Below the pieces are notes generated by a model. The model was not told the DNA's origin and made no database searches. It saw only the letters and a program-made list of their open reading frames with translations. From positions 8,113-72,112 of the forward strand of contig NZ_LMUM01000037.1 of NCBI RefSeq assembly GCF_009765985.1: a DNA stretch of 64,000 nt, given 5' to 3'. The translations under genes and the position numbers were made by a program. Source of the stretch: Acidobacterium sp. S8. GTDB taxonomy: Bacteria; Acidobacteriota; Terriglobia; Terriglobales; Acidobacteriaceae. This document shows positions 22,773 through 41,128 of this stretch, in pieces; position 1 is the first letter of the stretch; each line of letters begins with the position of its first letter.

Positions 22773-23950
22773 AAAGGCCTCGTTATCAGTTCGGAAGCCT
22801 ATATATGGAGTCGCGTAGAAACGGCCCCGATGTATGGGTCTATCGCTGGCGTGAAACCAACCAGCAAGGCAGCCGCCAGCTGCGAAAGCAAATCCTGGGA
22901 ACGGTAAAGGAACTACGGAACCAGGCAGATGCGTTCAGGGCGGCGGAGACGTTTCGCCTCAGTATTAACCGTCAGGCGGTCGAGCACGCAGGACCGCCAC
23001 CAACCCTTCGTAAGCTCATCGAGCACTACCGATTGAAGGAACTGCCGATGGATCATCACGAAGGCAAAAGAAGGTCGACGAAGATGGGCTACATCAGCAA
23101 TCTCGACAACCACATCGTGCCGCGCTGGGGAGACTATCTTCCGAGCCGCGTCACGACGATCGAGGTTGAGGAGTGGCTGAAGTCGCTCGTGCTTGCACCC
23201 GCAAGCCGGGCGAAAGTACGCAACGTGTTGAGCATGATCTTTCGTCATGGCATGCGCTGGGGATGGCTCGATAAGAACCCGGTAACGATGGTGCGGGTCA
23301 GCTCAAAGCGTCTGCGGCGCCCGGACGTGCTTACGGCGGAGGAGTTCCGTTCTCTACTGGAAGCTCTGCCGCAACGCGAACGTCTGTTAGGCACGATCTG
23401 TGCGACCACGGGTCTGCGGATCGGCGAGGTACTCGGTCTGAAGTGGGAAGACATTAACTTCACCACGCACATGGCCGATGTCCTTCGCTCCTATTCGGAC
23501 GGCGCCGTCGGTCCCTGCAAGACGGAAATCTCCGAGCAGCCCGTACCGCTCGATGAGATTGTCTTGGAAGGACTGCAGGGATGGCGGCAGGTCTCAGGCT
23601 ACCCGGAAGCTAGCGACTGGGTCTTCGCCAGCGATCATCACTTCGGCAAAACTCCGCTTTGGCCTGACAGCCCTCGGACCAAAATCCTGCAGCCCATCGC
23701 TCGACGGGTGGGCATCACGAAACGGATTGGCTGGCATACGTTCCGGCGCACATACAGCTCATTGCTGGCTTCAACTGGCAACGATGTGAAGGTGGTTCAG
23801 GAACTGATGCGCCACTCCAAAATCAGCACGACGATGGAGGTCTACGCGCAGGCGGGCATGGAGCAGAAGCGTGTCGCGCAGCGCAGGGCCGTCGATGTTC
23901 TACTGGGTAGGAAACCGAGGATTGCTACCATCGAGGGCGCAGAACTGTGA
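22769..23950 (+). CDS. int: tyrosine recombinase integrase (element 1)
   Basis: This 393-residue enzyme has the phage-integrase layout: an N-terminal arm-binding part, a SAM-like core-binding domain (about 78-175) and a catalytic domain. The active-site set is visible: Arg217 in TTGLRIGEVLGLKW, Lys251, His323/Arg326 in HTFRRTYSSLL, His349 in MRHSKISTT and the nucleophile Tyr359. It is coupled to xis by ATGA and lies just left of a tRNA-Ala 3'-end repeat at 24019. It is intact, so excision of element 1 may still be possible even though its trbE is broken. Confidence 0.93.
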   Translation: MKRPRYQFGSLYMESRRNGPDVWVYRWRETNQQGSRQLRKQILGTVKELRNQADAFRAAETFRLSINRQAVEHAGPPPTLRKLIEHYRLKELPMDHHEGKRRSTKMGYISNLDNHIVPRWGDYLPSRVTTIEVEEWLKSLVLAPASRAKVRNVLSMIFRHGMRWGWLDKNPVTMVRVSSKRLRRPDVLTAEEFRSLLEALPQRERLLGTICATTGLRIGEVLGLKWEDINFTTHMADVLRSYSDGAVGPCKTEISEQPVPLDEIVLEGLQGWRQVSGYPEASDWVFASDHHFGKTPLWPDSPRTKILQPIARRVGITKRIGWHTFRRTYSSLLASTGNDVKVVQELMRHSKISTTMEVYAQAGMEQKRVAQRRAVDVLLGRKPRIATIEGAEL

Positions 23951-23952
23951 TG

Positions 23953-24000
23953 TTCCCATACTGTTCCCACGAAAGTGGCCCAGTTCCCGGAAGTGGTAGC
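23953..24000. repeat. TTCCC direct repeats, putative arm sites of integrase 1
   Basis: Three close TTCCC words (TGTTCCCAT, TGTTCCCAC, AGTTCCCGG) lie between the end of int1 and the tRNA-derived repeat. Spaced short repeats beside an attachment core are typical integrase arm sites. They differ from the CGTATCG repeats at the ends of element 2, as expected for different integrases. Confidence 0.35.
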
Positions 24001-24063
24001 CTAAGTTGTTGAGTTGTTTGGTGGACCTGATCGGGATCGAACCGATGACCTCTTCCATGCCAT
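24001..24063. other. attachment site (junction of element 1 and element 2), tRNA-Ala 3'-end copy
   Basis: Bases 24019-24063 are identical to 41053-41097, the 3' 45 bases of the tRNA-Ala gene including CCA. The 18 bases to the left (24001-24018) match 41035-41052 at 15 positions. After 24063 identity stops within the anticodon loop, so this is a truncated tRNA copy and not a functional tRNA gene. Confidence 0.88.
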
Positions 24064-24185: not shown

Positions 24186-24647
24186 TCAGCTCGGCAAGAA
24201 ACCGCGTCGTGCCCTGAGTTCTAGACGCAGCTCCTCGCGGAGTGCTTTGCTCTTCCTCAGCCGCTTGAAAAACTCCTCCAGAACGCTCACCATAATCGCA
24301 TTCACGCTCACACCCTCCTCTTCCGCCCAGGCTCGGATCACGGTTCGAGCTTCGACTCCAACATGCAAAAGCTGAGGTTTGGATAGCGGGAGTCCAGCCT
24401 TGCGAGTCTGCGTGATCGTTACGTCCTTCCGTTCGACGTTACGAAGGGCAAAAAGAACTACCCTCGAAAGATCGCCTGCCACGCGCGCCTCCTCGGTGAC
24501 CGCCTCCCGGAGATCAATGGGTAGGCGCAGGGTCATGCCAGCGCGGTCTTCCGTCCAGCGCTGTCCCTCGCGGTTCACGTTTCGACTTGTCTTCCGTATT
24601 GCCAACGCGTCTGACTTCCTGCCCAAGTTGACTTGCTCCGCAAACAT
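24186..24647 (-). CDS. RHH/Arc-like DNA-binding protein
   Basis: The 153-residue product contains AGMTLRLPIDLREAVTEEAR, an RHH-type strand and helix, then VAGDLSRVVLFALRN. A C-terminal helical part (RTVIRAWAEEEGVSVNAIMV) looks like a second RHH or helix-turn-helix unit. It lies at the left end of element 2. A perfect 8-bp dyad stands 43 nt upstream of its start (24690-24711). A truncated copy of gene and dyad occurs at 33718-33976. Autoregulation through the dyad is inferred. The start is uncertain because no strong ribosome-binding site precedes ATG24647. Confidence 0.6.
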   Translation of the reverse strand: MFAEQVNLGRKSDALAIRKTSRNVNREGQRWTEDRAGMTLRLPIDLREAVTEEARVAGDLSRVVLFALRNVERKDVTITQTRKAGLPLSKPQLLHVGVEARTVIRAWAEEEGVSVNAIMVSVLEEFFKRLRKSKALREELRLELRARRGFLPS

Positions 24648-24711: not shown

Positions 24712-24967
24712 GACGACATGATTCTAGCGTAAAAGAGCGTAGCCTTGCCGCCACAAGAGGCTATCAAATGAGCGCCTACCTTCCTAAATACTCTTGTAGA
24801 GTGGCCACCGTACCTGAAATTTGCGCGGGTTTAGAGAGAGACGCCGTACTCGTCCGTATGTAGCCTCCCGATTCTGGTTAATCTTCGTGGCGCGTGGTGG
24901 CCTTGCAACACGACGACGGAGCTGGGTGCTGAGCGTGCTCACCGCAGGGCCCTTGTATCCTCGAGAA

Positions 24968-25744
24968 ATGGCCGAGATACAAAATCCCGTAGGACCACTA
25001 GTCAAGGCTGATGCTGTGAACTTCACTAGAGAGCAGATAGAGAGGCTACTCGCGGCTGCATGCAACTTCCAGGGTCAGGGCATGGCAGCACGCGAAAAAT
25101 GCCGCGAGGACTTCCGCGATGCTGAGCGTGAGGACGACAATACCCTGCGGATAATGGTCGACGGGCTGGTTGGTTCACTTCAGGATAAGCTCTCCCAACC
25201 GATCGAGAAGGTAGATCCGGGGATCTCCTATCAGATCGGCTTGGTGACCTCCTACGTCCGAACTCACTTCATCGTCACCGATCTGATCCTGAACGGCGAC
25301 CTGGTCGAGGCCGTGACGCTGATCCGGAAGCAACTCGAATCCGTCGCCCGCTTGAATGAACTGGACAAGCGGCCACTAGACAAACTTGAGGGCAAGACCC
25401 CAAACATACGTATGTTCTTCAGGCACGGGGGCGGAGAGATGTATGGGCACCTTTCAGAGGTGGCTCACTTTTCGAAATCGCGCGTTTCCGAACTGATGCA
25501 TGTGATCCAGAACGGGGATCGTATCGGGCCAAGTCTCTATCCGGTCTTCACCGAGCACAGTTTCGCGTGCCTCGATATGCACCACTTCGTTTCGATCTAC
25601 TTCCTGGCGTGGATCACAGAGAAGCTGTCCGAATGGTATCCGCACATCGATCACCAGGAAGGGAGGACGATGGTCGGCCTGACTATCGCATATGCCAAGA
25701 AAATCGACGTAATTCGGTTTCCGGATCGACAGCCGGAACCCTGA
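24968..25744 (+). CDS. helical protein of unknown function (DUF5677-like appearance)
   Basis: The ATG at 24968 (GAGAA upstream) gives 258 residues. The protein is mostly alpha-helical, with FTREQIERLLAAACNFQGQG near the start and LILNGDLVEAVTLIRKQLES in the middle. The latter resembles DUF5677-type proteins found in defence islands and as orphans. No catalytic motif is clear; HGGGEMYGHLSEVAHFSKSR holds conserved-looking His/Glu residues. It lies 217 nt upstream of the reverse-transcriptase pair on the same strand, so it could belong to that system, but linkage is not shown. Confidence 0.55.
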   Translation: MAEIQNPVGPLVKADAVNFTREQIERLLAAACNFQGQGMAAREKCREDFRDAEREDDNTLRIMVDGLVGSLQDKLSQPIEKVDPGISYQIGLVTSYVRTHFIVTDLILNGDLVEAVTLIRKQLESVARLNELDKRPLDKLEGKTPNIRMFFRHGGGEMYGHLSEVAHFSKSRVSELMHVIQNGDRIGPSLYPVFTEHSFACLDMHHFVSIYFLAWITEKLSEWYPHIDHQEGRTMVGLTIAYAKKIDVIRFPDRQPEP

Positions 25745-25846: not shown

Positions 25847-25961
25847 GAACCAGCTAGTCTGAATGCCTGCGGACCATCATTTCGCCTCTTATGTGTGAGC
25901 CGGCGTTTGGTGGGAGAAGCACCGGCGTTCTATCGTTTCTGCATGACCTGGCGCACCCACA

Positions 25962-26348
25962 ATGTTCGGTTACAGCTTCGGGATCTCCGACGGGCGGATT
26001 ACGCTTGGCGATGGTAGCGAAGTCGATTGCCTACAGAAGGTCCACCCAATCGGGCGGCATGTAGCCGCCGGCTTCGCGGGTTCAGTTAACATCGGCTTCG
26101 CCATGATCGATGAGCTGCGACGTCTGGCCGACTATAAAGACCCTCGGATAGCATGTGACCCGGAAGCAGTGCGAAAGCAGTGGCCGGGCTGCGCCCGGGC
26201 GGTGTTCAACCGGTTCGGCCCCGAAGACCAGACCGACCAGTGTCACCTCATGCTGTTCATGGTGCACCCGCTCCAACACGGCGGGAATTCAGGCGGTCTG
26301 TTGGAAGCGACGATACAATCGAGCTTCCCGGTGATTGAACCCGAATGA
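25962..26348 (+). CDS. Ntn-hydrolase/HslV-like protein paired with the reverse transcriptase
   Basis: The 128-residue product shows ISDGRITLGDGSEVDCLQKV, PIGRHVAAGFAGSV and GFAMIDELRRLADY, the order seen in HslV/proteasome-beta proteins (an xGDGxVxxG stretch, then AGFAG and a helix). A normal N-terminal nucleophile (Thr, Ser or Cys after Met) is absent: the protein begins MFGYSFG. An in-frame TGA lies upstream at about 25944, so no longer start exists. It may be a catalytically dead sensor/scaffold or a truncated protease. The stop overlaps the reverse-transcriptase ATG (ATGA), strongly linking the two. Confidence 0.6.
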   Translation: MFGYSFGISDGRITLGDGSEVDCLQKVHPIGRHVAAGFAGSVNIGFAMIDELRRLADYKDPRIACDPEAVRKQWPGCARAVFNRFGPEDQTDQCHLMLFMVHPLQHGGNSGGLLEATIQSSFPVIEPE

Positions 26349-28450
26349 TTACGAAAACATCGCTAATCTCGCTGCGCAACCTCGACCTTGCTCTGTCCCG
26401 GATCCTCACTGCGAAAAATCACCAGCATAAGCGCATGTTCCGACACATCTATCAGGCCTACGAGCCGGGGCGCCGGGCGAACCTGCTTCTGCTACACGAA
26501 AAGCTCAGGGGTGGATGGAAGGCCACCCGTCCGATCCGCATTTACATGCCGAAGCCCTCCGGCCTGCTTCGTCCCCTCACGCTCCTGACGCTCGAGGATC
26601 AAATCGTCCTGCAGGCTATCGCGAACCAGGTCGCAAAGCAGACCTTCGAACGGAGGCGCGATGTGCAGGGACAGTCGGTTTTCAGCAACTGCCTGAGCAA
26701 GGATCCGAACTCGATCTTCTTTCTTCAGGATTGGCGATCTACCTATCACCAGTTCCAAGTCCGACTCGCGCGCCACCTGGCGGCCGGCAATCAGTGGATC
26801 GCACACTTCGATCTGGCGGCTTTCTACGAGACGATCTCACACCGCGCTCTCCAGACGATCGTAGCGCCTTCCGGTGGAGGGAACGAGCTTTGGTCGCTCA
26901 TTCGCGAGTGGCTGTGCGTATGGACGTCCGAACAGGGAGGCATTCCGGTGGACCACGGCATACCCCAAGGGCCGATGGCGTCGGATTTCCTGGCGGAGGT
27001 GTTTCTCCTGCCGCTCGACGAGGCCATGAAGCGCACTGGCATCCCCTACATCCGGTATGTGGATGACATTCGCGTCCTTGCGAAAAGCGAGGAAGAGGCG
27101 CGACGAGCAGCAATCGTGCTGGAAATAGAATGTCGGCGTTGGAGTCTGATACCGCAAGGCTCCAAGTTCAAAGTCTCGCATGCGAGAACCATTGCCGAAG
27201 CTCTCGGTACGCTGCCCAGCATCGCGGAATCGACAGGTCGCGATGTGGACGAAGGCGAACTCGACGATGCATCGGCCGTGAGCATCCTGCGCGACGCCAT
27301 CAAGGGTCGGCCGCCGCGTGTCGTGGACAAGAGCCGGCTGCGCTATGTTCTTTACCGGGCAGGTGCTTCCCCCAGTGTGCTCCGGAGGACGATCGATCTG
27401 CTCCCTCGGCATCCTGAGCATATCGATGCCTTCGCCGCATACTTGCAAAACTATTCGAAGTCCCGGCCGGTCGAGCGGCTGGTCTGGAGCATGCTCGGGT
27501 CCGGAGTTCTTTACGACTACGTTGAGGCCGAATTGTGGATGATCGCAGCCCGCATGGGCTCCGCCCAGACGCTCGCCGGTCTGCTTCAGAGGGCCCAGCT
27601 GCAGGCAAGACGACGGCCCCTATCGTTCTCGATGCGCCGTGCGCTGCTGACGTTTTTCGTGAGTTGCCGCAACGTCGGGGTCTATACGAACGGCATGACC
27701 ATTAAGCGTCTGCGGGCTCAAACCCCATACATCCAGTCACTCATCGTTCCTCACTTCGTCAGCGGAGATTTCAAGGCCGGCGGCATAGCCTCCGAGCTGG
27801 TGAAGGCTGCGCTTCCGGGAATGGTTCTGGCAGGCCAGATGGTCGACCGCTCCATCACTGTCGAAGAACTCGGCGTTCAAGTCGCTGAACTGGAACCGGA
27901 GGTGAGAAACGTATTCCATGGCCTCGGCCTGATTGAGGGACCGAAGCAACCGCGCTTCGATCAAGTCGGCGATGTACTCCGGATTCGCTACGGCATCCCG
28001 TACTGGAAAGGATGGCGGGGACTCCTTGCCAGCAATTATCAGCACGCGCTGCAGGTCTTGCTTACGGCCGAGAACAAGTTCCTGCCTGATAGCTCGGGCT
28101 GGTTGTCCTCACAAAACTCCTTCAACGATGCGGTGTTCAGGGCGCTTCAGGCCTATCTTCAGAGCAAGGGGCTGCCTGGTGCGATGACCATGCTCGATCC
28201 GAAGGGCAAGCTGCACCCATTCGGCCGCCTGCTCGACAAAGACACGGCGTTCTCAAGAGCATTCCCTACGATGTCGGCTTCGCTTCGCGCTGGAAACGAT
28301 CGACGTAATAGCATACCGGACAGCCATCCGTTTGAGTTCAAAAGCGGAAAGCGGACCAAGCGCCTGCGTGTCCGCGAACGCGATGAATTAAAGGCCAAAT
28401 TCACAAGCGCCTACGGAGAGATCGTCACCTTCGTGAATGCGCAACCATAA
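26345..28450 (+). CDS. defence-type reverse transcriptase (UG/Abi-like) with long C-terminal domain
   Basis: This 701-residue protein has the RT core: RIYMPKPSGLLRPLTLLTLE (65-84), motif A AHFDLAAFYETISH with Asp156, motif B GIPQGPMAS (205-213) and motif C YVDD (238-241). There is no maturase or HNH intron domain and no adjacent group II intron structure. About 370 residues of helical sequence follow the RT, as in Abi/UG (DRT) antiviral reverse transcriptases. It is coupled to the Ntn-like gene and followed by about 400 nt of non-coding, structured DNA. I cannot place it in a named DRT class. Confidence 0.88.
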   Translation: MITKTSLISLRNLDLALSRILTAKNHQHKRMFRHIYQAYEPGRRANLLLLHEKLRGGWKATRPIRIYMPKPSGLLRPLTLLTLEDQIVLQAIANQVAKQTFERRRDVQGQSVFSNCLSKDPNSIFFLQDWRSTYHQFQVRLARHLAAGNQWIAHFDLAAFYETISHRALQTIVAPSGGGNELWSLIREWLCVWTSEQGGIPVDHGIPQGPMASDFLAEVFLLPLDEAMKRTGIPYIRYVDDIRVLAKSEEEARRAAIVLEIECRRWSLIPQGSKFKVSHARTIAEALGTLPSIAESTGRDVDEGELDDASAVSILRDAIKGRPPRVVDKSRLRYVLYRAGASPSVLRRTIDLLPRHPEHIDAFAAYLQNYSKSRPVERLVWSMLGSGVLYDYVEAELWMIAARMGSAQTLAGLLQRAQLQARRRPLSFSMRRALLTFFVSCRNVGVYTNGMTIKRLRAQTPYIQSLIVPHFVSGDFKAGGIASELVKAALPGMVLAGQMVDRSITVEELGVQVAELEPEVRNVFHGLGLIEGPKQPRFDQVGDVLRIRYGIPYWKGWRGLLASNYQHALQVLLTAENKFLPDSSGWLSSQNSFNDAVFRALQAYLQSKGLPGAMTMLDPKGKLHPFGRLLDKDTAFSRAFPTMSASLRAGNDRRNSIPDSHPFEFKSGKRTKRLRVRERDELKAKFTSAYGEIVTFVNAQP

Positions 28451-28569
28451 CCATGGGGCGCGGTTCGTGGCTGGGCGGGGTCTGCGCGATCACCGGCATC
28501 GTCCTTGTTGGGACCGATCGAGGAGTTGGCTCTGCTTGCCGCGGCTTCGCGTCAATTAATCGACGGTCG

Positions 28570-28712
28570 ATTCTCTTGAGAATAGAGAAGCGCAAGCTTC
28601 TCATATCCGGCCACCACCCGGAGCGGAGATGGCGGTCAAGGCCGTGAAGCGCCGCGCTAGCGGTCGCAGCGGAGAGCCTTGACGGACACCGGAGCGGAGG
28701 GTAAGAGCTCCG
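28570..28712 (+). ncRNA. candidate structured RNA downstream of the reverse transcriptase
   Basis: In the gene-free gap 28451-28850 three stems follow closely. GAGAAGC/GCTTCTC closes a GCAA tetraloop at 28585-28602. GTCAAGGC/GCCTTGAC (28635-28642 with 28676-28683) encloses a further CCGC/GCGG hairpin. CGGAGC/GCTCCG lies at 28690-28712. A TTCT/AGAA hairpin precedes them at 28571-28582. A stable GNRA loop and nested stems beside an antiviral-type RT suggest a template or partner RNA. No sequence match to a known RNA is claimed; strand is assumed from the operon. Confidence 0.4.
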
Positions 28713-28850
28713 CACAAACGAATGGTCTGTCAATTTTTGATACCGATCTCTCTTATTCCCATTGTTTGTCTCGCGCAGACAGGATTCGGTAGCTGATGTT
28801 CATGAACCAAGCGTAGGGTCGGAGAGGTTGAACACTTTTCGCCTCACTTG

Positions 28851-30404
28851 ATGCCGCCCTCTATCGTCAATTCGACTCCGCCCACCACCCGTGCGGCTCA
28901 GTATGTCCGAATGTCAACGGAACATCAGCAGTATTCTCCGCAAAACCAGTCTGACACCATCACGAAATATGCCATCGCTCACAATATGGACATCGTCGCC
29001 ACATACGACGACCACGGGCGAAGCGGGCTCAACCTCGCGGGCCGGGATGGGCTAAGTCAGCTTCTGAAGGATGTTGAGCAAGGGCGCACAAGCTTCACGG
29101 ACCTCCTGGTTTACGACGTGAGCCGCTGGGGACGGTTCCAGGACGCCGACGAAAGCGCGTATCACGAATATGTTTTGAAGCGAGCAGGTATCCGCGTTCA
29201 CTATTGCGGCGAGCAGTTCGCAAACGATGGGAGCATGGCGTCTGCGCTGATGAAGACGCTCAAACGAACCATGGCGGGGGAATATAGCCGGGAGCTGTCT
29301 GTCAAAGTCTTTGCGGGGCAATGCCGCCTCATTGAGCTTGGATTCAGGCAAGGCGGCCCGGCTGGTTACGGTCTCCGACGCCAGCTCATTGATCGTGACG
29401 GCAAAGAAAAGGGATTACTAGCGCGAGGAGAGCGGAAAAGCCTACAGACGGACCGTGTTGTTCTGGTGCCTGGTCCTGAAGCAGAAATTCTTGTTGTGCG
29501 GGACCTGTTCTCTCGTTTTGTGGAAAACGGGCAATCAGAAAAGAACTTAGCCTTCTACCTCAACAGCAAGGATGTACTGTCTGACATGGAGAAACCTTGG
29601 ACGAGGGCGACGATTCATCAAATTCTCACGAATCCTAAGTATGTCGGCGCCAATGTGTACAACCGTCGTTCATACAAGTTGAAGATGAAGCGGCTGGTAA
29701 ACCCACCTGAAATGTGGATCTCTCGCAACGAAGCATTCAAGGCAATCGTTCCCACGGATGTCTTTTTGCAAGCCCGCCGGATCATCGATGCTCGACATGT
29801 GCATTTGACAGACGATGACTTGCTCGCGCGGTTGCGAGTGCTGTTAGAGCGATGCGGGAAGCTGTCGGGGCTACTTATCGATGAGGCAGAAGATATGCCT
29901 TCAAGTTCAATTTACGTGTCGCGGTTCGGCGGTCTCCATAGAGCTTACGAGCTCATTGATTGGAGCGACCGGCGAGACTCCAGCTTTATTGAAGCAAATC
30001 GAGAGCTGCGTCGGCGGCATCAAGATCTAGTCAAAATCATCGTTGCGGATTTGCGAGCTACTGGGGCGCACGTAGAGGTAGACGACCGTTCCGACTTGCT
30101 AACCATCAATCACGAATACACGGCGTCTCTCATCCTTTCAAGGTGTCAGGAGACGAAAGCGCAGTCTCAACGATGGCGACTCCGGTTTGATGCTGGGCTA
30201 GTTCCGGACATCACCATTGCCGGTCGGCTGAATCCAGGAAATCAGACCGTTAAGGACTACTACCTGCTTCCAAGCATTGATCTCCTCTGGAAGCGGCTCA
30301 GTCTTGCCGCTGACAATGGAGTCTTGTTGGACCTATATAGATTCGACACCCTCAATCTATTTTTGAACCTCGCAAAAAGAGTTCCAGTGGAGGACGTAGC
30401 GTGA
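28851..30404 (+). CDS. large serine recombinase
   Basis: The ATG at 28851 gives 517 residues; a TTG just before it is the alternative. The resolvase catalytic domain starts AAQYVRMSTEHQ with nucleophile Ser22 and includes YDDHGRSGLNLAGRDGLSQL, LLVYDVSRWGRF and the long helix region LMKTLKRTMAGEYSRELSVK. A recombinase domain follows (GGPAGYGLRR ... WTRATIHQILTNPKYVGANV). Large serine recombinases integrate, excise or invert DNA. It heads a three-gene operon with two ParB-like genes, overlapping the first by GTGA. Its target site is unknown. Confidence 0.9.
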   Translation: MPPSIVNSTPPTTRAAQYVRMSTEHQQYSPQNQSDTITKYAIAHNMDIVATYDDHGRSGLNLAGRDGLSQLLKDVEQGRTSFTDLLVYDVSRWGRFQDADESAYHEYVLKRAGIRVHYCGEQFANDGSMASALMKTLKRTMAGEYSRELSVKVFAGQCRLIELGFRQGGPAGYGLRRQLIDRDGKEKGLLARGERKSLQTDRVVLVPGPEAEILVVRDLFSRFVENGQSEKNLAFYLNSKDVLSDMEKPWTRATIHQILTNPKYVGANVYNRRSYKLKMKRLVNPPEMWISRNEAFKAIVPTDVFLQARRIIDARHVHLTDDDLLARLRVLLERCGKLSGLLIDEAEDMPSSSIYVSRFGGLHRAYELIDWSDRRDSSFIEANRELRRRHQDLVKIIVADLRATGAHVEVDDRSDLLTINHEYTASLILSRCQETKAQSQRWRLRFDAGLVPDITIAGRLNPGNQTVKDYYLLPSIDLLWKRLSLAADNGVLLDLYRFDTLNLFLNLAKRVPVEDVA

Positions 30405-31270
30405 ACGAGCAACAAGTTGAATCGATTCTCATCTCAGAAATCCGAATTACGAACCCACGATCACGGAATCGACTCAAGTGGCAATTGGTCGTTCAAAGCA
30501 TCGCAACCGTAGGTTTGAAGCGGCCTATCACCGTAGCGCGAAGACCTCATTCAAATTCCGACGGCAAACGCTACGATTTGGTATGCGGACAAGGGCGCAT
30601 GGAGGCTTTTGTCGAGCTTGGTGAAATGTTCATTCCAGCAATCATCATCGAAGCACCAGAACAAGATCGTCAATTGATGAGCCTGGTCGAAAATATAGCC
30701 AGAAGACCGGCATCGACCCATGCGATTTTGTTCGAAGTTAGGGTTCTGCGTGAGAGGGGGCACTCAAGCGAGCAGATCGCTCGTAAGCTTGGCCTGGACC
30801 GGGCGTACCTTTATGGAATCTGCAATCTCATTGATAAAGGAGAAGAATTTCTTGTCTCTTCCGTAGAGGCCGGTCGCATCCCGCTGAGCGTTGCCGTAGA
30901 AATCGCCACTGGCAACAATCATGAGATCTCCAGGGCATTGTCGGAAGCTTACGAGAAGGGCGATCTGCGTGGGGCGCGCATCTCGGCCGCTCGCCGGGTC
31001 ATAAGCCAGAGGTTAGAAAGACAAAGGCTTCAAGGGAAGACCGCGCCGACGCGCCGCAAACTGACCGGCGAAGCTCTAGTCCAGGAGTATAAGCAAAAGA
31101 TTCGTGAGCAGACCGCCTTAGTGGTGAAGGCGAACCGCACAAGAGATCGGCTGATTTTGCTCACATCCGCCGTTCGAATCCTATTTGCAGATGAGAATTT
31201 TCGCACTCTTTTGAAGGCCGAAGGCGTTCAGTCTGTGCCTGCGGAGCTTGCAGGAAGGATCCAACAATGA
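30401..31270 (+). CDS. ParB-like protein (first of pair)
   Basis: This 289-residue protein starts at GTG30401 with GGAGG upstream. It has a ParB N-terminal fold: ILISEIRITNPRSRNRLKWQ, SIATVGLKRPITVA and YDLVCGQGRMEAFVELGE, the degenerate counterpart of the ParB nucleotide-binding box. A helix-turn-helix follows (HSSEQIARKLGLDRAYLYGI), then RepB-like helices. ParB proteins are CTP-dependent DNA clamps in partition. Here, coupled to a serine recombinase and a second ParB in an integrated island, it more likely recognises DNA for recombination or silencing. That role is inferred. Confidence 0.8.
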   Translation: MNEQQVESILISEIRITNPRSRNRLKWQLVVQSIATVGLKRPITVARRPHSNSDGKRYDLVCGQGRMEAFVELGEMFIPAIIIEAPEQDRQLMSLVENIARRPASTHAILFEVRVLRERGHSSEQIARKLGLDRAYLYGICNLIDKGEEFLVSSVEAGRIPLSVAVEIATGNNHEISRALSEAYEKGDLRGARISAARRVISQRLERQRLQGKTAPTRRKLTGEALVQEYKQKIREQTALVVKANRTRDRLILLTSAVRILFADENFRTLLKAEGVQSVPAELAGRIQQ

Positions 31271-32181
31271 AGCGCGCATCCGCGAATTTGCGTTCTGCCT
31301 TTCAGAACAACATCCTGACGCTGCCGCTGAGCTCGATCGTCCCACAGAGGAGCGCAACTGCGGAAGCGCTCCGTTCCTCCATTTTCAAACAAATTCTGGC
31401 GTCTGTGCGCGAGATCGGCCTAATCGAGCCGCTGGTCGTCTATCCGCGGGAGGGAAAGGGCTTTCTGCTTTTGGATGGACATCTCAGATTTGAGGCTCTC
31501 AAGATATTGGGGAGTGAGGAGGTTAACTGCATCGTCTCCACGGATGATGAGAGCTACACGTACAACAAACGAGTGAACCACATACCACCCGTTGCCCAAC
31601 ACTTCATGCTCATGGAAGCTATAAAGAGCGGAGTTGCAGAGGAGCGTATCGCCGCCACCCTAAACGTTGACGTGGCGGCGATTCGGAGGCGGGTGCAGAT
31701 GCTTGAAGGAATTTGCCCCGAGGTAGTCGAGATGTTGCGGGATCGGAAGCTAAGCCTGGACCTGTTCCCGGTACTGCGAAAGATGAAAGCAATTGGACAG
31801 ATAGCGACGGTCGAGCTAATGGTCCTCCGCAATGACTATTCTGTCGCGTTTGCAAAGACCAGGCTCGCCATCAGTCCTCCGGCGCTCCTCGCGAAGACTT
31901 CAACTGCACGTCAACACACTGCTAATGCTGACGCTGCAGATGCACTCCTCGGCGATGATACAGATGGTCTCATTCAGAATCTGAAGGCAATTGAAGAGAC
32001 CTACGGCACCGACGTTCTGACGCTTACGGTAAGCTGTGCCTATCTTGACCGGCTGTTCAATGAAGAAAAGATTACGAGCTATTTGGAACGACATCATCCA
32101 GGCCCTCTGGAAACGCTGAAGACGATTATCTCGGCTTTTAGACCCCCTTCAACACTGGAGAAAGGCGCGACCGCGCAATAA
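31267..32181 (+). CDS. ParB/RepB-like protein (second of pair)
   Basis: The ATG at 31267 overlaps the previous stop (ATGA). The 304-residue product has a clearer ParB box, LPLSSIVPQRS, VREIGLIEPLVVYP and FLLLDGHLRFEALKILG. A helix-turn-helix (ERIAATLNVDVAAIRRRVQM) and a RepB plasmid-partition domain (CPEVVEMLRDRKLSLDLFPV, AYLDRLFNEEKI) follow. It is the last gene of the recombinase-ParB-ParB operon. The two ParB proteins are different in sequence, suggesting a heteromeric complex and not a recent duplication. Confidence 0.82.
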   Translation: MKRASANLRSAFQNNILTLPLSSIVPQRSATAEALRSSIFKQILASVREIGLIEPLVVYPREGKGFLLLDGHLRFEALKILGSEEVNCIVSTDDESYTYNKRVNHIPPVAQHFMLMEAIKSGVAEERIAATLNVDVAAIRRRVQMLEGICPEVVEMLRDRKLSLDLFPVLRKMKAIGQIATVELMVLRNDYSVAFAKTRLAISPPALLAKTSTARQHTANADAADALLGDDTDGLIQNLKAIEETYGTDVLTLTVSCAYLDRLFNEEKITSYLERHHPGPLETLKTIISAFRPPSTLEKGATAQ

Positions 32182-32377
32182 TGTAGAGTGAGGCGTGCGA
32201 TCCAACATAAGAGCTCAAGTTCAGTTCGGCTCATAGCTTTGGTCTTCAATCTTCACAAGCAGTCTTCCCAAAACCGAGTACTGCGGGTGCTGATTTAGAG
32301 CTCGCTGAGATGCGCTATATGCCGTTTAACTAGTCCAGCTACTATTAGGTCCACAGCCAAAAGTAGGCGCATTGGGT

Positions 32378-33319
32378 ATGCGAATATTCGTTGCCATTAC
32401 GGATCAAGATTGGTTCAACCTTCACGCGTCAAGTGTGCAGATTGACGAGGTAAACTTCTGGCGACCATCACCTACGGCTAATTTCAAGGCGCTCCAGCCG
32501 GGAGAATTGATGCTCTTCAAATTGCATTCTCCCCTCAATTTCATTGCCGGTGGTGGCTTTTTCACCAGATTTCTTCATCTAGCACTGAGCCTGGCCTGGG
32601 ATAGCTTCGGTAGGGCGAACGGCGTCGTCTCTGTTGAAGAAATGAGAATGCGGATAGGGAAATATCGGCACGTAGATTTCGCGTCAAGTGATGATCCGAA
32701 TGTAGGGTGCATTCTGCTTGCTGAGCCATTCTTCTGGCCCAGGGAGCTTTGGATTTCCCCTCCCGCTGAATTCAGTCGAAATAATCAAGTGGGGCAAGGC
32801 TTCGATGCCGAATCCGGTGCCGGCAAGGCATTGTGGGCTGCGGTATCCGAGCGTCTTGCCGTTCACCCGCCGCCGAAAATCGAAACCGCAACCGCGACAC
32901 TTTCGGCGATCGAATCGAATGGTTATGGAAAACCTCAAATCGTCCACCCACGACTAGGCCAGGGTACCTTCCGGGTTTTGGTGACGGAGGCGTATGAGCG
33001 GCGCTGTGCAATCACTGGCGAACGCACGCTGCCTGTCCTCGATACGGCGCACATCATGCCATTCTCCATTTGCCAGCGGCACGAGCTCTCAAATGGAATC
33101 CTGATGCGCAGCGACCTGCACCGGCTATTTGACGGTGGCTACCTGACCATAGACCCCGCTGACCGAAAGGTAGTTGTCAGCAAACGCATTCGTCAGGAGT
33201 TTGATAACGGTAAGGAATATTATCGACTTGAGGGACAACAGATCCGCGAACCAAATAACCTCGCATTCAGACCGTTAACAGAGAACATCGAATATCACGC
33301 ATACCACAGATTTCGATAG
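32378..33319 (+). CDS. HNH endonuclease with N-terminal PUA/SRA-like domain, candidate type IV restriction enzyme
   Basis: The ATG at 32378 is preferred over a TTG two codons earlier; 313 residues. The N-terminal half (FVAITDQDWFNLHA, VNFWRPSP, LQPGELMLFKLHSPLNFIAG) resembles PUA-like modified-base readers. The C-terminal half carries an HNH motif: YERRCAITGERTLPVLDTAH with His225, Asn239 in SNGILMRSDLHRLFDGG and His248. This reader-plus-HNH design is known from enzymes that cut modified DNA. It stands alone, 196 nt after the ParB operon, in a defence-rich island. Confidence 0.75.
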   Translation: MRIFVAITDQDWFNLHASSVQIDEVNFWRPSPTANFKALQPGELMLFKLHSPLNFIAGGGFFTRFLHLALSLAWDSFGRANGVVSVEEMRMRIGKYRHVDFASSDDPNVGCILLAEPFFWPRELWISPPAEFSRNNQVGQGFDAESGAGKALWAAVSERLAVHPPPKIETATATLSAIESNGYGKPQIVHPRLGQGTFRVLVTEAYERRCAITGERTLPVLDTAHIMPFSICQRHELSNGILMRSDLHRLFDGGYLTIDPADRKVVVSKRIRQEFDNGKEYYRLEGQQIREPNNLAFRPLTENIEYHAYHRFR

Positions 33320-33717
33320 CCTGACCATGCCCTTTTTTCGATCTGTCCTCAGTTTCAAGTAGCTAGTCATTTCTTGCCCGCCCTTCGAGGCGATTGCAAC
33401 TCCGCATTTATGCAAGCGACTTACAGACAGCTTTTCGCAATACGCCGACCTAGTCATTTAACAACGAACGGTCGGAACGATAGTCTGAAGGCGGACCTAG
33501 CAGGTTCGAGGTTCGGTGCTATCCAACCCGCATTTAGCTGCACTGTGATTCTTCTTCACCTCTTGTGCATGCGGGCCCGATCTTGCACGATGTCTGGATC
33601 CAATTGTCTGCTTGTGGCTGTCGGGGCTGGCCGCTAACCTCACAGTGTGTAAAGACTCGAGTTGGGAACCGTCAATGACGGTCGAGATGAGGTCGTTTTG
33701 ATAGTTCACATAGAAAC
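33320..33717. other. gene-free stretch before the RHH remnant
   Basis: No gene is supported. Short open frames lack ribosome-binding sites and protein character. The right part abuts a truncated copy of the left-end RHH gene, so this segment may be junction DNA from a past rearrangement. Confidence 0.35.
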
Positions 33718-33976
33718 GGAGCGCGAAAAGAACCACCCGCGAAAGATCGCCGGCTACCCGCGCCTCTTCCGTGACCACCTCCTGGAGGTCGATTGGGAGG
33801 CGCAGAGTCATCGCGGCCCGGTGTTCCGCCCACCGCTGCTCACGTTTCTAACGATTGTCTTTGTTGCTAACCGATCCTTCTTCCCAGTGCGAGTCGTCGG
33901 CGCAGTCGAAGGACAGCGACCTCAATTCAATCTCACCGTTTTTGTCTCTCATTCTATTGAAATGAAACTTTCAACA
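33718..33976 (-). pseudogene. truncated duplicate of the RHH gene with its operator
   Basis: Reading leftward, EQRWAEHRAAMTLRLPIDLQ, EVVTEEARVAGDLSRVVLFALR matches the N-terminal half of the RHH protein at 24186-24647. Similarity then stops at about 33718 and the frame runs into unrelated sequence. The dyad (33955-33976) and adjacent bases also match the left copy. An internal duplication or insertion of a related element is likely. No functional C-terminal half remains. Confidence 0.65.
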
Positions 33977-34078
33977 GAAGAGGCAATCTTACGATAGAGA
34001 GGCAGAGGCGCCCCGATGACCGGCTCTCTTGCCGACTCATTTATGATGAGGACGCATGTTTGGAGCTTCCTTTCAAGA

Positions 34079-37000
34079 ATGAGCGACCTAAACGAGGGCC
34101 TGTACGACCAGCTCGTCACTCGCCGCGTTCGTGAGTCTCTCGATCGGCAGGCCACCCTTGGTCTGAAATCGTTGGTTGAAGCGATCGAAGAGAACGATCA
34201 CCCGGATTATCTCGCACGTCACCTAATTCGACAGATAAAGGCCGCCCTTCGTGGATTACCTGCGGAAGACCGTAATCGTCGGCAGATCGACCTAGCGAAT
34301 TCTCTTTTGGACTTCGTGCGCGATCCGGCAGATTCGATCGAATTAGATCCTGTCGATGTACCCGGCCAAGTTCTTCGCGCTATCTACCGCGGCGCTGATG
34401 CACCAAAGCCGCCATCCACGCCCCTTAGCGTTACTAGCCTGCTCATGAATGCGTTGGATGAACCTCGTCTCGGCTTCGAACTTGAACGCGAAATGGCCAC
34501 CGCCGATCGCGTATTTATGGTGGTCAGCTTCATCCAGTGGCGTGGGTGGCAGCGACTCAAAAGCGCATTTCACGAACTCGCGACCCGCCAGGTTCCAATT
34601 CGACTCCTCACGACGACCTATATTGGAGCCACCGATTTCCGAGCTATCGAGGAAATTTCGCGGCTGCCGAATGTCGAGTTGCGAATCTCACTGGATGGGC
34701 GTCGGCGACGTCTCCATGCCAAATCATGGCTGTTTCAGAGGGACAATGGCTTCAGCAGCATCTATGTTGGTTCCGCCAACTTGTCTGGACCCGCTCTTGA
34801 AGACGGCATCGAATGGACAGTCAAGCTGAGCGAAGTGGAAGCACCTCACATTGTCGAACGCTTCCGCGGAGCGTTCGACTCTCTCTGGTGTGATGAGGAA
34901 TTCGAGCAGTTCCGACCAGACGATGAAGATTTTTGCCGGCGGGTGAAGCAGTCTTTGGAATATGCGAAGCGCGGGCCAGGAGGCCGCGATTCCGGACCAC
35001 CAGTGTTCTTTGATCTTCGGCCGCATCCCTACCAACAAGCCACCCTCGATCAACTTGAGACAGAACGGATCGATAAAGGGCATTTCCGCAATCTCGTCGT
35101 CGCCCCAACAGGGACGGGCAAGACGCTGATCGCGGCCTTCGACTATGCTCGCCAATCCTTCTCGGGACCTAGACCGAGGTTGCTGTTTCTAGCGCACCGA
35201 GAAGAGTTGCTGCGCCAGGCCCGTGATCGATTCCGTCACGTGTTGCGCGACGAGTCTTTTGGAGATCTGTTAGGCGGTGGAGAAGAACCGAGTAGTTACG
35301 AGCATCTATTCGCGACGATTCAGAGCTTTCGTAGCCGAGGTCTACTTGAAACTCAGGGCGAGACACATTGGGAATACGTCGTGCTCGACGAAGCACACCA
35401 CGTGCCGGCGGAGAGCTATCGCGAGATCGTCGCTTCTTTGCGGCCGCGCATTTTGTTGGGATTGACCGCTACCCCAGAGCGCATGGACGGAGAGAGCATC
35501 CTGCCGTGGTTCGGAAATCGAATCGCAGACGAGATGCGTCTCTGGCATGCAGTTGAACGCCAGTACCTGGTGCCATTCGACTACTACGGAGTTCACGACG
35601 GCACCGACCTAACCGGACTTTCCTGGAGCCGCGGTTCATACGCCATCGGCGAACTCGAACAACGCTACGTTGGCAATACGCGGCGGGCGAACCTAATCAT
35701 AAGGGAGTTTTGCGAGTTCTATGGCGACTGGCGTCTTGCGCGAGGATTGGGGTTCTGCGTCAGTATCGCCCACGCCCAATTCATGGCTGAGTCGTTTCGC
35801 CAGGCAGGGATACCTGCCTTGGCTATTACCAGTGAATCCCCTGATGACGAGAGGGCGCAGGCCGCCATGCGATTACGCAATCGAGAGGTCAACGTTCTAT
35901 TTAGCGTTGATCTCTTTAATGAGGGTGTGGACATCCCGGAGGCAGATTGCGTCCTCTTTCTGAGACCGACTGAGAGCTCAACCGTCTTTCTCCAACAGTT
36001 AGGGCGCGGACTTCGTCTGGATACAGGTAAAACGACTTGCCTTGTCCTTGATTTCATTGGAAACCAGAGGCGAGAATTTCGATTTGATCAGAGATTCCTT
36101 GCTCTGTTCGGCGGAACGCGCCAGCAAGTAATTCGGCAGATTGAGACTGGGATCACACGGCTGCCCGGCAACTGTTACTTCCGGCTCGACAAAGAGTCCA
36201 GAAAAGTAGTCTTGGAGAATTTGAAAGCACAGTTGCAGGTGAGTCGGGCTCGGATGGTCACGGAGCTAAACGCCCTGGCCGGCCACCTCGGGCGGCGGCC
36301 CACACTGATCGAATATCTTGCCGAAACGCACTATGAGCTTTCAGACGTTTACAAGCCTTCTATCGGCGGTTGGTATGCGCTCCTCAACGAAGGACGATTC
36401 CTTGAAGACCCGCTGACGGAAGCCGACGTTCTCCTGTCGAAGCGTTTCCAACTCTTGCTTCACATCGATTCGACCCGCCGGCTGCGATTTTACCTATATC
36501 AATTGAGCGCAAGACAGGTTGGCCTTGAGCCGATGCCGCCTTTGGAACAGCGTATGGTCCAAATGCTTACCTTTCGCCTATTGCAGAGCGAAGCGCGACA
36601 AACGGACACTGATTGGGACGCCGGATTGGTGCGACTTCAGCAAAACAACTTGGCAAGAGGTGAGTTACAGGAACTCTGCGAAGCAATGTTGGATCTGGTG
36701 AAGCTGCATACTGACGAAAGACCGTTGATGGATGAATGCCCTCTCTTCCTCCATCGGCAATACACGCGCGATGAGGTCCTGGTTGGACTAGGTTTACCGA
36801 ATCTTGTTGGAGCGCGTCAGACTCAGACCGGCCGCCTTTGGATTGAATCATCAAATACGGAGATCTTCTTCGTGACGCTAGACAAGTCTGAGAAAACTTT
36901 TTCCCCCTCAACACGCTACGAGGACTTTGCGCTAAGTCCTACCCGATTTCATTGGCAATCCCAGAGCACCACCGGCGAGAACTCTCCTACCGGCCAGAGG

Positions 37001-37195
37001 TACTCACGTCAGCGAGAGAATGGCGCTAGATTCTTATTGTTCGTCCGACCTAGAAAGGGTGACCCATTCTTATTTCTTGGGCCTCTGCGATACGTTTCGC
37101 ATTCAGGAAGCCGGCCTATGAGCATTTACTGGGACTTAGATTTCCCTATGCCAGCCTGGTTCTTCGAGCTTTGCGCCTCACTGCGTGCGGCGTAA
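34079..37195 (+). CDS. PLD-DEAH superfamily 2 helicase, defence-associated type
   Basis: The start at 34079 (MSDLNEGLYDQL) fits the family better than an ATG 63 nt upstream; 1038 residues. A phospholipase D-like domain (about 110-260) has one HKD-type motif, HAKSWLF with His213/Lys215, followed by GSANLSG. A superfamily 2 helicase core follows: Walker A APTGTGKT (342-349), DEAH (437-440), GLTATPERMDG and LFNEGVDIP and QQLGRGLR in the second RecA domain. A long DUF3427-like C-terminus completes it. PLD plus helicase in one chain suggests nuclease-helicase action on foreign DNA. It appears to be a stand-alone gene. Confidence 0.88.
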   Translation: MSDLNEGLYDQLVTRRVRESLDRQATLGLKSLVEAIEENDHPDYLARHLIRQIKAALRGLPAEDRNRRQIDLANSLLDFVRDPADSIELDPVDVPGQVLRAIYRGADAPKPPSTPLSVTSLLMNALDEPRLGFELEREMATADRVFMVVSFIQWRGWQRLKSAFHELATRQVPIRLLTTTYIGATDFRAIEEISRLPNVELRISLDGRRRRLHAKSWLFQRDNGFSSIYVGSANLSGPALEDGIEWTVKLSEVEAPHIVERFRGAFDSLWCDEEFEQFRPDDEDFCRRVKQSLEYAKRGPGGRDSGPPVFFDLRPHPYQQATLDQLETERIDKGHFRNLVVAPTGTGKTLIAAFDYARQSFSGPRPRLLFLAHREELLRQARDRFRHVLRDESFGDLLGGGEEPSSYEHLFATIQSFRSRGLLETQGETHWEYVVLDEAHHVPAESYREIVASLRPRILLGLTATPERMDGESILPWFGNRIADEMRLWHAVERQYLVPFDYYGVHDGTDLTGLSWSRGSYAIGELEQRYVGNTRRANLIIREFCEFYGDWRLARGLGFCVSIAHAQFMAESFRQAGIPALAITSESPDDERAQAAMRLRNREVNVLFSVDLFNEGVDIPEADCVLFLRPTESSTVFLQQLGRGLRLDTGKTTCLVLDFIGNQRREFRFDQRFLALFGGTRQQVIRQIETGITRLPGNCYFRLDKESRKVVLENLKAQLQVSRARMVTELNALAGHLGRRPTLIEYLAETHYELSDVYKPSIGGWYALLNEGRFLEDPLTEADVLLSKRFQLLLHIDSTRRLRFYLYQLSARQVGLEPMPPLEQRMVQMLTFRLLQSEARQTDTDWDAGLVRLQQNNLARGELQELCEAMLDLVKLHTDERPLMDECPLFLHRQYTRDEVLVGLGLPNLVGARQTQTGRLWIESSNTEIFFVTLDKSEKTFSPSTRYEDFALSPTRFHWQSQSTTGENSPTGQRYSRQRENGARFLLFVRPRKGDPFLFLGPLRYVSHSGSRPMSIYWDLDFPMPAWFFELCASLRAA

Positions 37196-39793: not shown

Positions 39794-40990
39794 TTGAATC
39801 GACCACGGTATCAACACGGCTTTTTCAGCCGTCATCAGCGCAAGAAGGGGCCAGAAGTCTGGGTTTATCGATGGCGGGATATTGACGCCAAAGGTAAACC
39901 CAAAATGCGTGCTCTTGTAATTGGTTCAGTGAAGCAGTACCCAACGGAAACGGCGGCATGGAAAGCCGTTTCCACACTGCGCCTCGACGTTAACCATCAC
40001 ACCTCCCGTCCTGAAGGTTTGCCAGAAACATTTGAGCAATTGGTAGAACACTACCGGTTGATCGAGTTGGATCTGGAAAAAGAATCCGAGCGGAAGGTCG
40101 TACAGACAAAGCAGACCTACGCTGTTTATCTGAAGGCAAGAATCGTTCCGCGTTGGGGCCATTACCGTCTTCGGGAGATCAAAGCGGTAGCGGTGGAGCG
40201 GTGGCTTGGCTCCATCGACGATTTAGCGAATGGGACCAAAGCGAAGATCAAGGGCATCATGAGTGAAGTCTTCCAACACGCGATCCGCTATGGCTGGCTC
40301 AATGATGGAGAAAACCCCATCTTTGCCGTCCGCCAGAGCACCAAGCGGAAGCGGGTCACGGAACCACTGGAAGTGGCAGAGTTCCGTGCGCTCATTCTGG
40401 AGTTGCCGCAGAGGATGCGCGTCATTGGCATCGTGGCTGCGACTACAGGGCTGCGGATAAGCGAAGTCCTGGGACTGAAGTGGATGGACATCGACTGGAA
40501 GACGTTGCAGATGGACGTTACCCGGTCGGTCGTGGACGGCATTGTGGGGAAGTGCAAGACAGAGACCTCCCGCAGGCCGGTCCCCATCGATGAGTTAACC
40601 ACAGCCGAGTTGTTGGCCTGGAAGCGGGAAACCTGCTACGCAGAGCCGGAGGACTGGGTCTTCGCCAGCGAACGAGTTCAGGGCAAAATGCCGCCCTGGG
40701 CCGATACGCTTCTGGATCGCTTCCTGCAACCTGCTGCGAAACGGGCCGGAATCACCAAGTGGGTCGGTTTCCATACCTTCCGGCACACCTACTCAACGCT
40801 GCTCAAAGCAAACGGGGAAGATGTCAAAGTGGTGCAGGAGTTGATGCGCCACGCCAACATCTCCACGACGATGAACATTTACACGAAGGCCCTGACTTCA
40901 GCCAAGCGAGAAGCGCAGAGCCGGGTGGTCGATGTTCTTCTGGACCGTTCAAGAAATGTCGTAGAAAGTGCTGCGGAGGATGCAGCATGA
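39794..40990 (+). CDS. int: tyrosine recombinase integrase (element 2)
   Basis: The 398-residue integrase starts at TTG39794, the position that aligns with the ATG of integrase 1 and has a GAGAGGA site. Catalytic residues are Arg221 (TTGLRISEVLGLKW), Lys255, His327/Arg330 (HTFRHTYSTLL), His353 and Tyr363 (NIYTK). It is 63 nt from the tRNA-Ala gene, the standard position for an integrase using the tRNA 3' end as attachment site. The two integrases share the same target but have different flanking arm repeats. Confidence 0.93.
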   Translation: MNRPRYQHGFFSRHQRKKGPEVWVYRWRDIDAKGKPKMRALVIGSVKQYPTETAAWKAVSTLRLDVNHHTSRPEGLPETFEQLVEHYRLIELDLEKESERKVVQTKQTYAVYLKARIVPRWGHYRLREIKAVAVERWLGSIDDLANGTKAKIKGIMSEVFQHAIRYGWLNDGENPIFAVRQSTKRKRVTEPLEVAEFRALILELPQRMRVIGIVAATTGLRISEVLGLKWMDIDWKTLQMDVTRSVVDGIVGKCKTETSRRPVPIDELTTAELLAWKRETCYAEPEDWVFASERVQGKMPPWADTLLDRFLQPAAKRAGITKWVGFHTFRHTYSTLLKANGEDVKVVQELMRHANISTTMNIYTKALTSAKREAQSRVVDVLLDRSRNVVESAAEDAA

Positions 40991-40991
40991 G

Positions 40992-41022
40992 AACCAACGT
41001 ATCGAAAGCGTATCGCGTTTTT
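40992..41022. repeat. subterminal repeat of element 2, right end
   Basis: AACCAACGTATCG and AGCGTATCGCGTTTT correspond to the left-end copy at 24142-24174 in direct orientation. The repeat begins immediately after the integrase stop and lies just inside the right attachment site. Confidence 0.6.
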
Positions 41023-41034
41023 TCTGCGAATCCG

Positions 41035-41097
41035 CTAAGTTGTTGGGTTTATTGGTGGACCTGATCGGGATCGAACCGATGACCTCTTCCATGCCAT
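41035..41097. other. right attachment site of element 2, overlapping the tRNA-Ala 3' end
   Basis: The 45 bases 41053-41097 are identical to 24019-24063, and the 18 bases to the left are 15/18 identical. Together these bound a 17-kb island. Integration here restores the complete tRNA gene. Confidence 0.88.
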
Positions 41098-41128
41098 GGA
41101 AGCGCGCTCCCAGCTGCGCCACAGGCCC
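41053..41128 (-). tRNA. tRNA-Ala (anticodon GGC)
   Basis: The minus strand folds as a full cloverleaf. Acceptor GGGCCTG pairs with CAGGTCC, including the G3-U70 wobble that identifies alanine tRNAs. The D-arm is GCGC/GCGC, anticodon stem CTTCC/GGAAG with loop ATGGCAT (anticodon GGC), and T-arm ATCGG/CCGAT with loop TTCGATC. The encoded CCA end is present. The gene hosts the integrated elements on its 3' side. Confidence 0.95.

Follow-up and report, generated by a model that had tools for sequence, protein, structure and literature searches.

A predicted UG19-class reverse transcriptase with a C-terminal HEPN domain beside the remnant of an HslV-like gene in Acidobacterium sp. S8

In the 64,000-nucleotide stretch of the Acidobacterium sp. 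S8 genome analysed here (contig NZ_LMUM01000037.1, positions 8,113 to 72,112 of the forward strand; hereafter the window, the numbering of which is used throughout), an open reading frame (ORF) of 128 codons, ORF128, and the gene of a 701-residue reverse transcriptase (RT) share the four nucleotides ATGA (25962-26348 and 26345-28450). This arrangement raises the question whether the two encode one functional unit. An earlier note, made from the sequence alone, described both ORFs and their overlap correctly and proposed that they form a bipartite antiphage system, in which the RT works with a partner of Ntn-hydrolase fold and possibly with an RNA. Results of our analysis indicate that the RT is likely a single-gene, AbiA-like RT-HEPN defence effector of the UG19 class, which lies beside a broken, unrelated gene. 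The parts of the RT gene are listed below.

26345-28450, plus strand: UG19-class reverse transcriptase with a predicted C-terminal HEPN domain, single gene, 701 aa (PADLOC RT_UG19 profile, AlphaFold2 model)
26345-27214, plus strand: RT fingers and palm, approximately residues 1-290 (structural match to 6ar1_A)
27251-27994, plus strand: predicted helical-repeat region, approximately residues 303-550, as in Abi/DRT polymerases (structure comparison)
28013-28441, plus strand: predicted HEPN domain (residues 557-699); its Rx6H motif, RNSIPDSH, occupies 28304-28327 (residues 654-661) (conservation, separate model, structure list)

The assignment of the RT to the UG/DRT defence enzymes, made already in the earlier note, is borne out by comparison with the PADLOC class profiles. 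The best match is RT_UG19 (E 2.2e-152, RT residues 5-697, profile positions 4-561 of 562), followed by UG21 (E 1.2e-56), and the other listed UG classes are far behind UG19. The likeness extends over the full length of the profile, and no tested feature separates the window RT from this class. The catalytic YVDD, also seen before, occupies residues 238-241 (nt 27056-27067), of which Y238, D240 and D241 are invariant and V239 is nearly so in an alignment of 36 rows. The earlier view that the RT is not an intron maturase agrees with its score of 90.5 bits against the group II intron maturase model TIGR04416, the cut-off of which is 300. The score against the NCBIfam model of AbiA (TIGR04499) is 21.1 bits, with a cut-off of 250.

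There is one match in its own genome, and UG19 matches at E <= 1e-40 are present in 8 of 399 genomes of the host's class, the own genome included. Its closest relative found (locus L027) is 75% identical in amino acid sequence, with dN (non-synonymous divergence) of 0.18, dS (synonymous divergence) of 2.03, which is saturated, and dN/dS of about 0.09. As judged from these values, the RT gene is under purifying selection and is therefore predicted to be probably a working gene. Many distant RTs of plasmid and phage records match it as well, none of those among the matches listed covering 80% of its length, and viral contigs yielded two relatives at 33% identity. UG19 is a catalogued but little-studied phage-defence class; a full-text literature search on its name turned up a single relevant mention, in a table. 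The UG classes were reportedly set out by Mestre et al. in 2022 (NAR). The DRT class scheme used here is that of PMC12632851 and PMC13174585, and UG19 is not named in the sections of those papers on which we draw.

The full-length RT was modelled with AlphaFold2 from 36 sequences (mean pLDDT 90, pTM 0.87). The RT part of the model resembles most closely group II intron RTs, the best match being the GsI-IIC RT 6ar1_A (Z 24.2, root-mean-square deviation (rmsd) 3.0, 264 residues, model residues 2-292). The C-terminal part, described previously as helical, is indeed mostly helical in the model, and can be resolved there into a region of helical repeats and, after it, a HEPN domain. The structural alignments with AbiA (378 residues, Z 19.8, rmsd 4.4), AbiK (421, Z 18.0, rmsd 4.2), DRT4 (432, Z 17.6, rmsd 5.1), DRT6 (428, Z 18.9, rmsd 4.5) and UG15 (451, Z 16.2, rmsd 6.2) cover the helical region too and end at model residues 498-592, whereas those with DRT2 and DRT9 stop at residues 297-331. 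Thus, as modelled, the helical region is of the Class 1 UG/Abi type, like that of AbiA and AbiK.

Since the list of this full-length structure search was filled by the RT domain, the HEPN part was hardly probed by it, and the last 185 residues were also folded separately (mean pLDDT 93.9). Ranks 1-15 of the structure list obtained for this separate model are HEPN proteins and rank 16 is unrelated. The best match is 2hsb (Z 9.2, rmsd 3.4, 119 aligned residues). Eight of the fifteen are HEPN proteins by title (2hsb, 3o10, 7ae2, 7ae8, 7ae9, 7ae6, 8xdj and 1o3u) and three by an abstract or the title of another entry (SO_3166, 5yep; RnlA, 6y2p and 6y2r); the remaining four (6m6u, 7bxo, 6m6w and 1ufb) we take to be HEPN proteins as well. 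In addition, R654 and H661 of the Rx6H motif, which fits the Rx4-6H pattern of the HEPN superfamily, are invariant in 36 of 36 homologues, down to 23% identity. The motif of AbiA, given as RNSNPVSH (residues 581-588) in the AbiA passages of PMC11077055, shares with that of the window RT (RNSIPDSH) the pattern RNxxPxSH, and an AbiA relative that matches 8oz7 at E 4e-30 reads RNSNPLSH. This relative is the C-terminal piece, used alone, of the one split AbiA gene that 398 genomes from the phylum of genome G945 yielded. Searches for AbiA relatives in 297 genomes of the window's phylum and in two genomes from which loci were taken gave no match, nor did a control respond in either of them.

Several results weigh against this picture of an AbiA-like HEPN effector. 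A Z of 9.2 is, according to the warning of the structure tool, within the range that any helical bundle can reach through a common arrangement of helices. Foldseek by itself returned nothing below E 1; its best match was the HEPN domain 3o10 (E 1.4). No Pfam HEPN model recognises the C-terminal domain, and a profile of this domain found no match among the sequences of the Protein Data Bank (PDB). The profile comparison with the C-terminal part of the AbiA relative is weak (E 0.018, probability 2.5%). Finally, AbiA itself showed no RNase activity on the RNAs tried, and substitutions in its Rx6H motif left defence unaffected, according to the same passages of PMC11077055, so the HEPN part of the window RT may be structural. 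When Pfam was run over the 36 members of the C-terminal domain family, each matching family touched one member at most (Hypoth_Ymh, E 0.17), and the weak profile comparison aligned just the RNxxPxSH stretch. We therefore assign an AbiA-like HEPN fold and motif to the modelled C-terminus with good confidence and place little confidence in its common ancestry with the domain of AbiA. With Lactococcus AbiA (PDB 8oz7) the window RT, as modelled, shares the three-part layout of RT, helical region and C-terminal HEPN domain with Rx6H. The TIGR04499 score and the marginal similarity of the C-terminal profiles indicate an architectural likeness and not membership of the AbiA family. UG19 thereby gains an anatomy open to testing, in which the RT is followed by a helical region and by a HEPN domain whose Rx6H is invariant; the gene often stands beside hsdS.

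By analogy with AbiA and AbiK, as these are described in parts of PMC11077055, the RT would synthesise single-stranded DNA upon phage infection in a protein-primed and probably untemplated reaction. The primer would be a hydroxyl residue of the RT itself near the active site, and candidates are Y36, kept in 32 of 36 sequences, and the serine or threonine residues in or preceding the poorly ordered loop 294-302. The HEPN domain may dimerise the protein and may cut RNA or bind nucleic acid, and the infected cell would then stop either the phage or itself. Neither a partner protein nor an adjacent non-coding RNA (ncRNA) would be required. The polymerase activity, the priming, the trigger and the role of the HEPN domain are thus all inferred from these analogues.

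The neighbours of related RTs bear on the question of which part of the protein is the effector. In 43 loci, 28 same-strand genes of at least 130 aa lie within 250 bp upstream of the RT, and 25 of these were scanned, the ORFs of 143, 145 and 137 aa in L032, L040 and L054 being left out. Methylase_S, the domain of HsdS, is present in 8 of the 25 by raw count. As read from the sequences, the hsdS-linked loci are L037, L039, L043, L046, L050, L063, L064 and L067; a safer count is 7 of 24, because L043 and L046 come from one metagenome-assembled genome and share the same upstream protein. Further upstream domains are of the Eco57I/MmeI type (two genes), HSDR_N (one) and GmrSD_C (one), and the remaining upstream genes are ordinary household genes, e.g., those of a tRNA synthetase and a dehydratase. 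Type I methyltransferase models match 8 of 59 further same-strand neighbours. In the Desulfofustis metagenome-assembled genome (L043, L046 and L099), three UG19-like RT copies with short or interrupted frames lie on three unitigs, two of them behind an hsdS-like gene; these copies may be strain variants or assembly artefacts.

It is conceivable, if somewhat doubtful, that UG19 RTs in general are RT-HEPN effectors wired to restriction and often slotted behind hsdS, like PrrC in its type I restriction-modification (R-M) locus. If so, a DNA-synthesising polymerase would act as a second line of defence once restriction has been overcome, and would either switch the C-terminal RNase or be switched by it; in the window the same effector would stand alone, carried by an island. 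The theme of RT-HEPN proteins and R-M systems is not new, since AbiA-type HEPN domains fused to RTs in operons with R-M systems were tabulated in 2013, as found in a part of PMC3710099. With PrrC, RloC and the other HEPN effectors of R-M operons treated there, the window RT shares the HEPN domain, and some of its relatives stand directly after hsdS; PrrC and RloC, in contrast, carry an ABC ATPase where this protein carries an RT, and no R-M operon adjoins the latter.

A related explanation makes the HEPN domain the actual effector, with the RT as its sensor or inhibitor, the whole being restrained by a nearby restriction system as PrrC is. The upstream genes described above and the invariant Rx6H are consistent with it, as is the proposal, put forward in the same part of PMC3710099, that HEPN proteins in R-M operons act in this way, with an Rx6H RNase freed when restriction is blocked. 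However, no R-M gene adjoins the window RT, the nearest candidates being the HNH and type IV-like genes 4-6 kb downstream, and AbiA kept its defence function despite the motif substitutions mentioned above. We consider this explanation unlikely.

The stretch that follows the RT was described in the earlier note as structured and non-coding, and as the possible source of an RNA.

28453-28712, plus strand: stretch after the RT, with no sign of a functional RNA

The RT could accordingly be an enzyme of Class 2 DRT type that copies an adjacent ncRNA, encoded in 28453-28850 or in the leader. DRT2, DRT9, DRT10 and DRT3a work so, according to the sections of PMC12632851 and PMC13174585 that were used, and about 400 nt after the RT hold no convincing gene. 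The results obtained for this stretch do not support such an RNA. The folding energy of 28453-28712 is -116.4 kcal/mol; shuffled sequences average -109.9 (z -1.26), and 25 of 200 fold equally well. Rfam gave a tRNA as the sole match in the window and no family at the gathering score in 28453-28712, no second copy of this stretch was found in the genome at E <= 0.01, and it has no similarity to the flanking DNA of related RTs, those 75% and 63% identical included. The flanks of other relatives match each other in part. Matches among L035, L037 and L039 were considered as a conserved RNA and rejected, the DNA reading as coding sequence of HsdS ends and HsdR starts (hsdS of L037 was confirmed by Pfam); the matches between L052 and L058 (upstream, 405 nt long) and between L047 and L049 (43 nt long) were not assigned to coding sequence. 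The helical region, moreover, resembles that of AbiA and AbiK rather than DRT2 and DRT9. To the points that count against the single-gene reading it should be added that a strongly diverged ncRNA could escape DNA comparison. On balance, an RT that copies an adjacent ncRNA appears quite improbable.

The remaining question concerns ORF128 itself. The features upstream of the RT are as follows.

25950-26294, plus strand: HslV/Ntn-like gene remnant, corresponding to residues 5-119 of a 261-aa relative (L022) (sequence comparison)
25962-26348, plus strand: ORF128, the open frame left by the remnant, which starts at an internal Met (M-F-G)
26314-26319, plus strand: TACAAT hexamer that may be the -10 element of the RT and lies 25 nt ahead of the ATG (weak, noticed post hoc)

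The likeness of ORF128 to HslV and the proteasome, proposed earlier, holds at the level of its family and is weak for ORF128 alone. The single sequence matches Pfam Proteasome at E 0.021 (14.9 bits, cut-off 22.4) and HslV models at E 0.024-0.028, while for the profile of its family 13 HslV sequences head the 20 listed matches (best E 0.0013). The family thus likely has an HslV-like Ntn fold. Matches of ORF128 at E <= 0.001 occur in 9 of 397 genomes of the host's order, the own genome included, and are convincing in four of the eight others (L012-L015). Among 72,556 plasmid records one, of a Vibrio plasmid, matched, and four pattern matches in a scan of viral contigs included no relative. The full-length members L022, L023 and P0003 have about 261-267 aa and begin with M-T-W (the start codon of L023 being TTG), and the Thr behind the start Met would be the candidate nucleophile of the family. 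Two other members look broken: L021 carries an internal stop, and L020, which begins with M-T-W, looks interrupted later.

The window copy has decayed further. The window ATGACCTGG that would serve as the start of the remnant has its ATG at 25943, in a different frame from ORF128; between TGG and CACC the window is 8 nt shorter than L020, its nearest relative, and the candidate Thr is therefore lost. An in-frame stop lies just upstream of ORF128. The N-terminal Thr, Ser or Cys, the lack of which had been taken as a hint of a non-catalytic role, is indeed missing, as is to be expected of a broken gene. The homology to the family ends near residue 111 of ORF128, its last 17 or so codons lying in the RT leader, and over half of the family length is missing. 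Elsewhere in the genome there is no further match at E <= 1. With HslV and other Ntn hydrolases the remnant shares the lead of HslV sequences among the matches of its family profile. ORF128 is a decayed, truncated leftover of an unrelated gene and not a partner of the RT.

The distribution of the two genes points in the same direction. The Ntn-family profile was run with default HMMER filters, to E 10, over six frames of the window and of 106 loci. No match was obtained in 88 other RT-bearing loci (L002-L006, L008, L009 and L026-L106; 83 distinct after removal of five that are duplicates as judged by contig name and length), including those with RTs 63-75% identical to that of the window. In 10 of 79 loci of RT relatives (L030, L033, L035, L036, L068, L069, L075, L082, L087 and L104) the sequence starts less than 500 nt before the match, so that the upstream neighbour is out of view. 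Matches were confined to the window and its copies (L001, L007 and L011) and to loci of Ntn relatives (L010, L012-L015 and the longer versions of these, L020-L023); the weak Ntn relatives L016-L019 did not match. Conversely, a tblastn search with the RT gave no match in the seven loci of Ntn relatives that it covered (L010 and L020-L025, with L018 and L019 outside this test). The earlier note itself had named related RTs without the Ntn-like neighbour, and an RT that falls in a described class, as grounds for refutation; the lack of the neighbour beside related RTs and the placing of the RT in UG19 both speak against the pairing. The DNA similarity between the window and L027 is limited to the RT gene, from one base ahead of its start to a point within it. 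A TACAAT lies also in L026 and L005, 27 nt before the ATG, and was not seen in L027, the closest relative.

The ATGA overlap is a by-product of an RT with a short leader landing beside a broken gene. The pairing is an artefact of decay. A bipartite system in which ORF128, though shortened and non-catalytic, would be translated together with the RT and serve as a sensor or scaffold of Ntn fold is very improbable, as the overlap, the order of the two ORFs and a frame open over 128 codons are set against a fragment that ends in unrelated residues and has relatives at none of the 88 other RT loci searched. An attractive but false lead, that of an Ntn-partnered RT system, is hereby removed, and the case illustrates that an ATGA overlap between a defence gene and the broken gene preceding it can be mistaken for a sign of an operon. 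In L020 (4819-6062), an ATGA overlap joins the Ntn-like gene to a HEAT-repeat gene upstream of it, and this gene is more plausible as its real partner than any RT. A 307-aa ORF at 24821-25744, just upstream of the remnant, has no match in Pfam, NCBIfam or PADLOC.

The RT is probably carried on a 17-kb island at a tRNA-Ala gene, as suggested by the following features.

24018-24063, plus strand: exact 46-nt repeat of the 3' end of tRNA-Ala, which probably bounds the island on the left
39794-40987, plus strand: tyrosine integrase at the right end of the island, adjoining tRNA-Ala
41052-41097, plus strand: second copy of this exact 46-nt repeat, at the 3' end of tRNA-Ala itself, which probably bounds the island on the right
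41053-41128, minus strand: tRNA-Ala (Rfam match)

The integrase ORF was picked by the DNA-level likeness of its end to another integrase, and there was one Phage_integrase match in the 24 ORFs scanned. The regions 23401-24063 and 40438-41097, which contain the repeats together with the ends of the two integrase genes, share 66% identity, which suggests that islands are arranged in tandem at a single tRNA gene. Another contig of the same genome (contig C21 of G000, 64038-64062) carries the repeat a third time, exact in its 25-nt core pattern, and no tRNA was found in 3 kb there. A 123-nt direct repeat, 80% identical (24441-24563 and 33716-33838), flanks the block of the RT and ParB genes, and lies inside a pair of similar ORFs on the minus strand (MTLRLPIDL...), of which the first matches Arc below threshold. 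The same island encodes an HNH endonuclease (32372-33319) that resembles, below cut-off, proteins of phosphorothioation-dependent restriction. It also encodes a type IV-like restriction helicase (34016-37195) with a sub-threshold PLD match. Between the RT and these genes, at 28848-32181, are a large serine recombinase and then two overlapping ParB/RepB-like genes, a content that seemed unusual for an integrated island.

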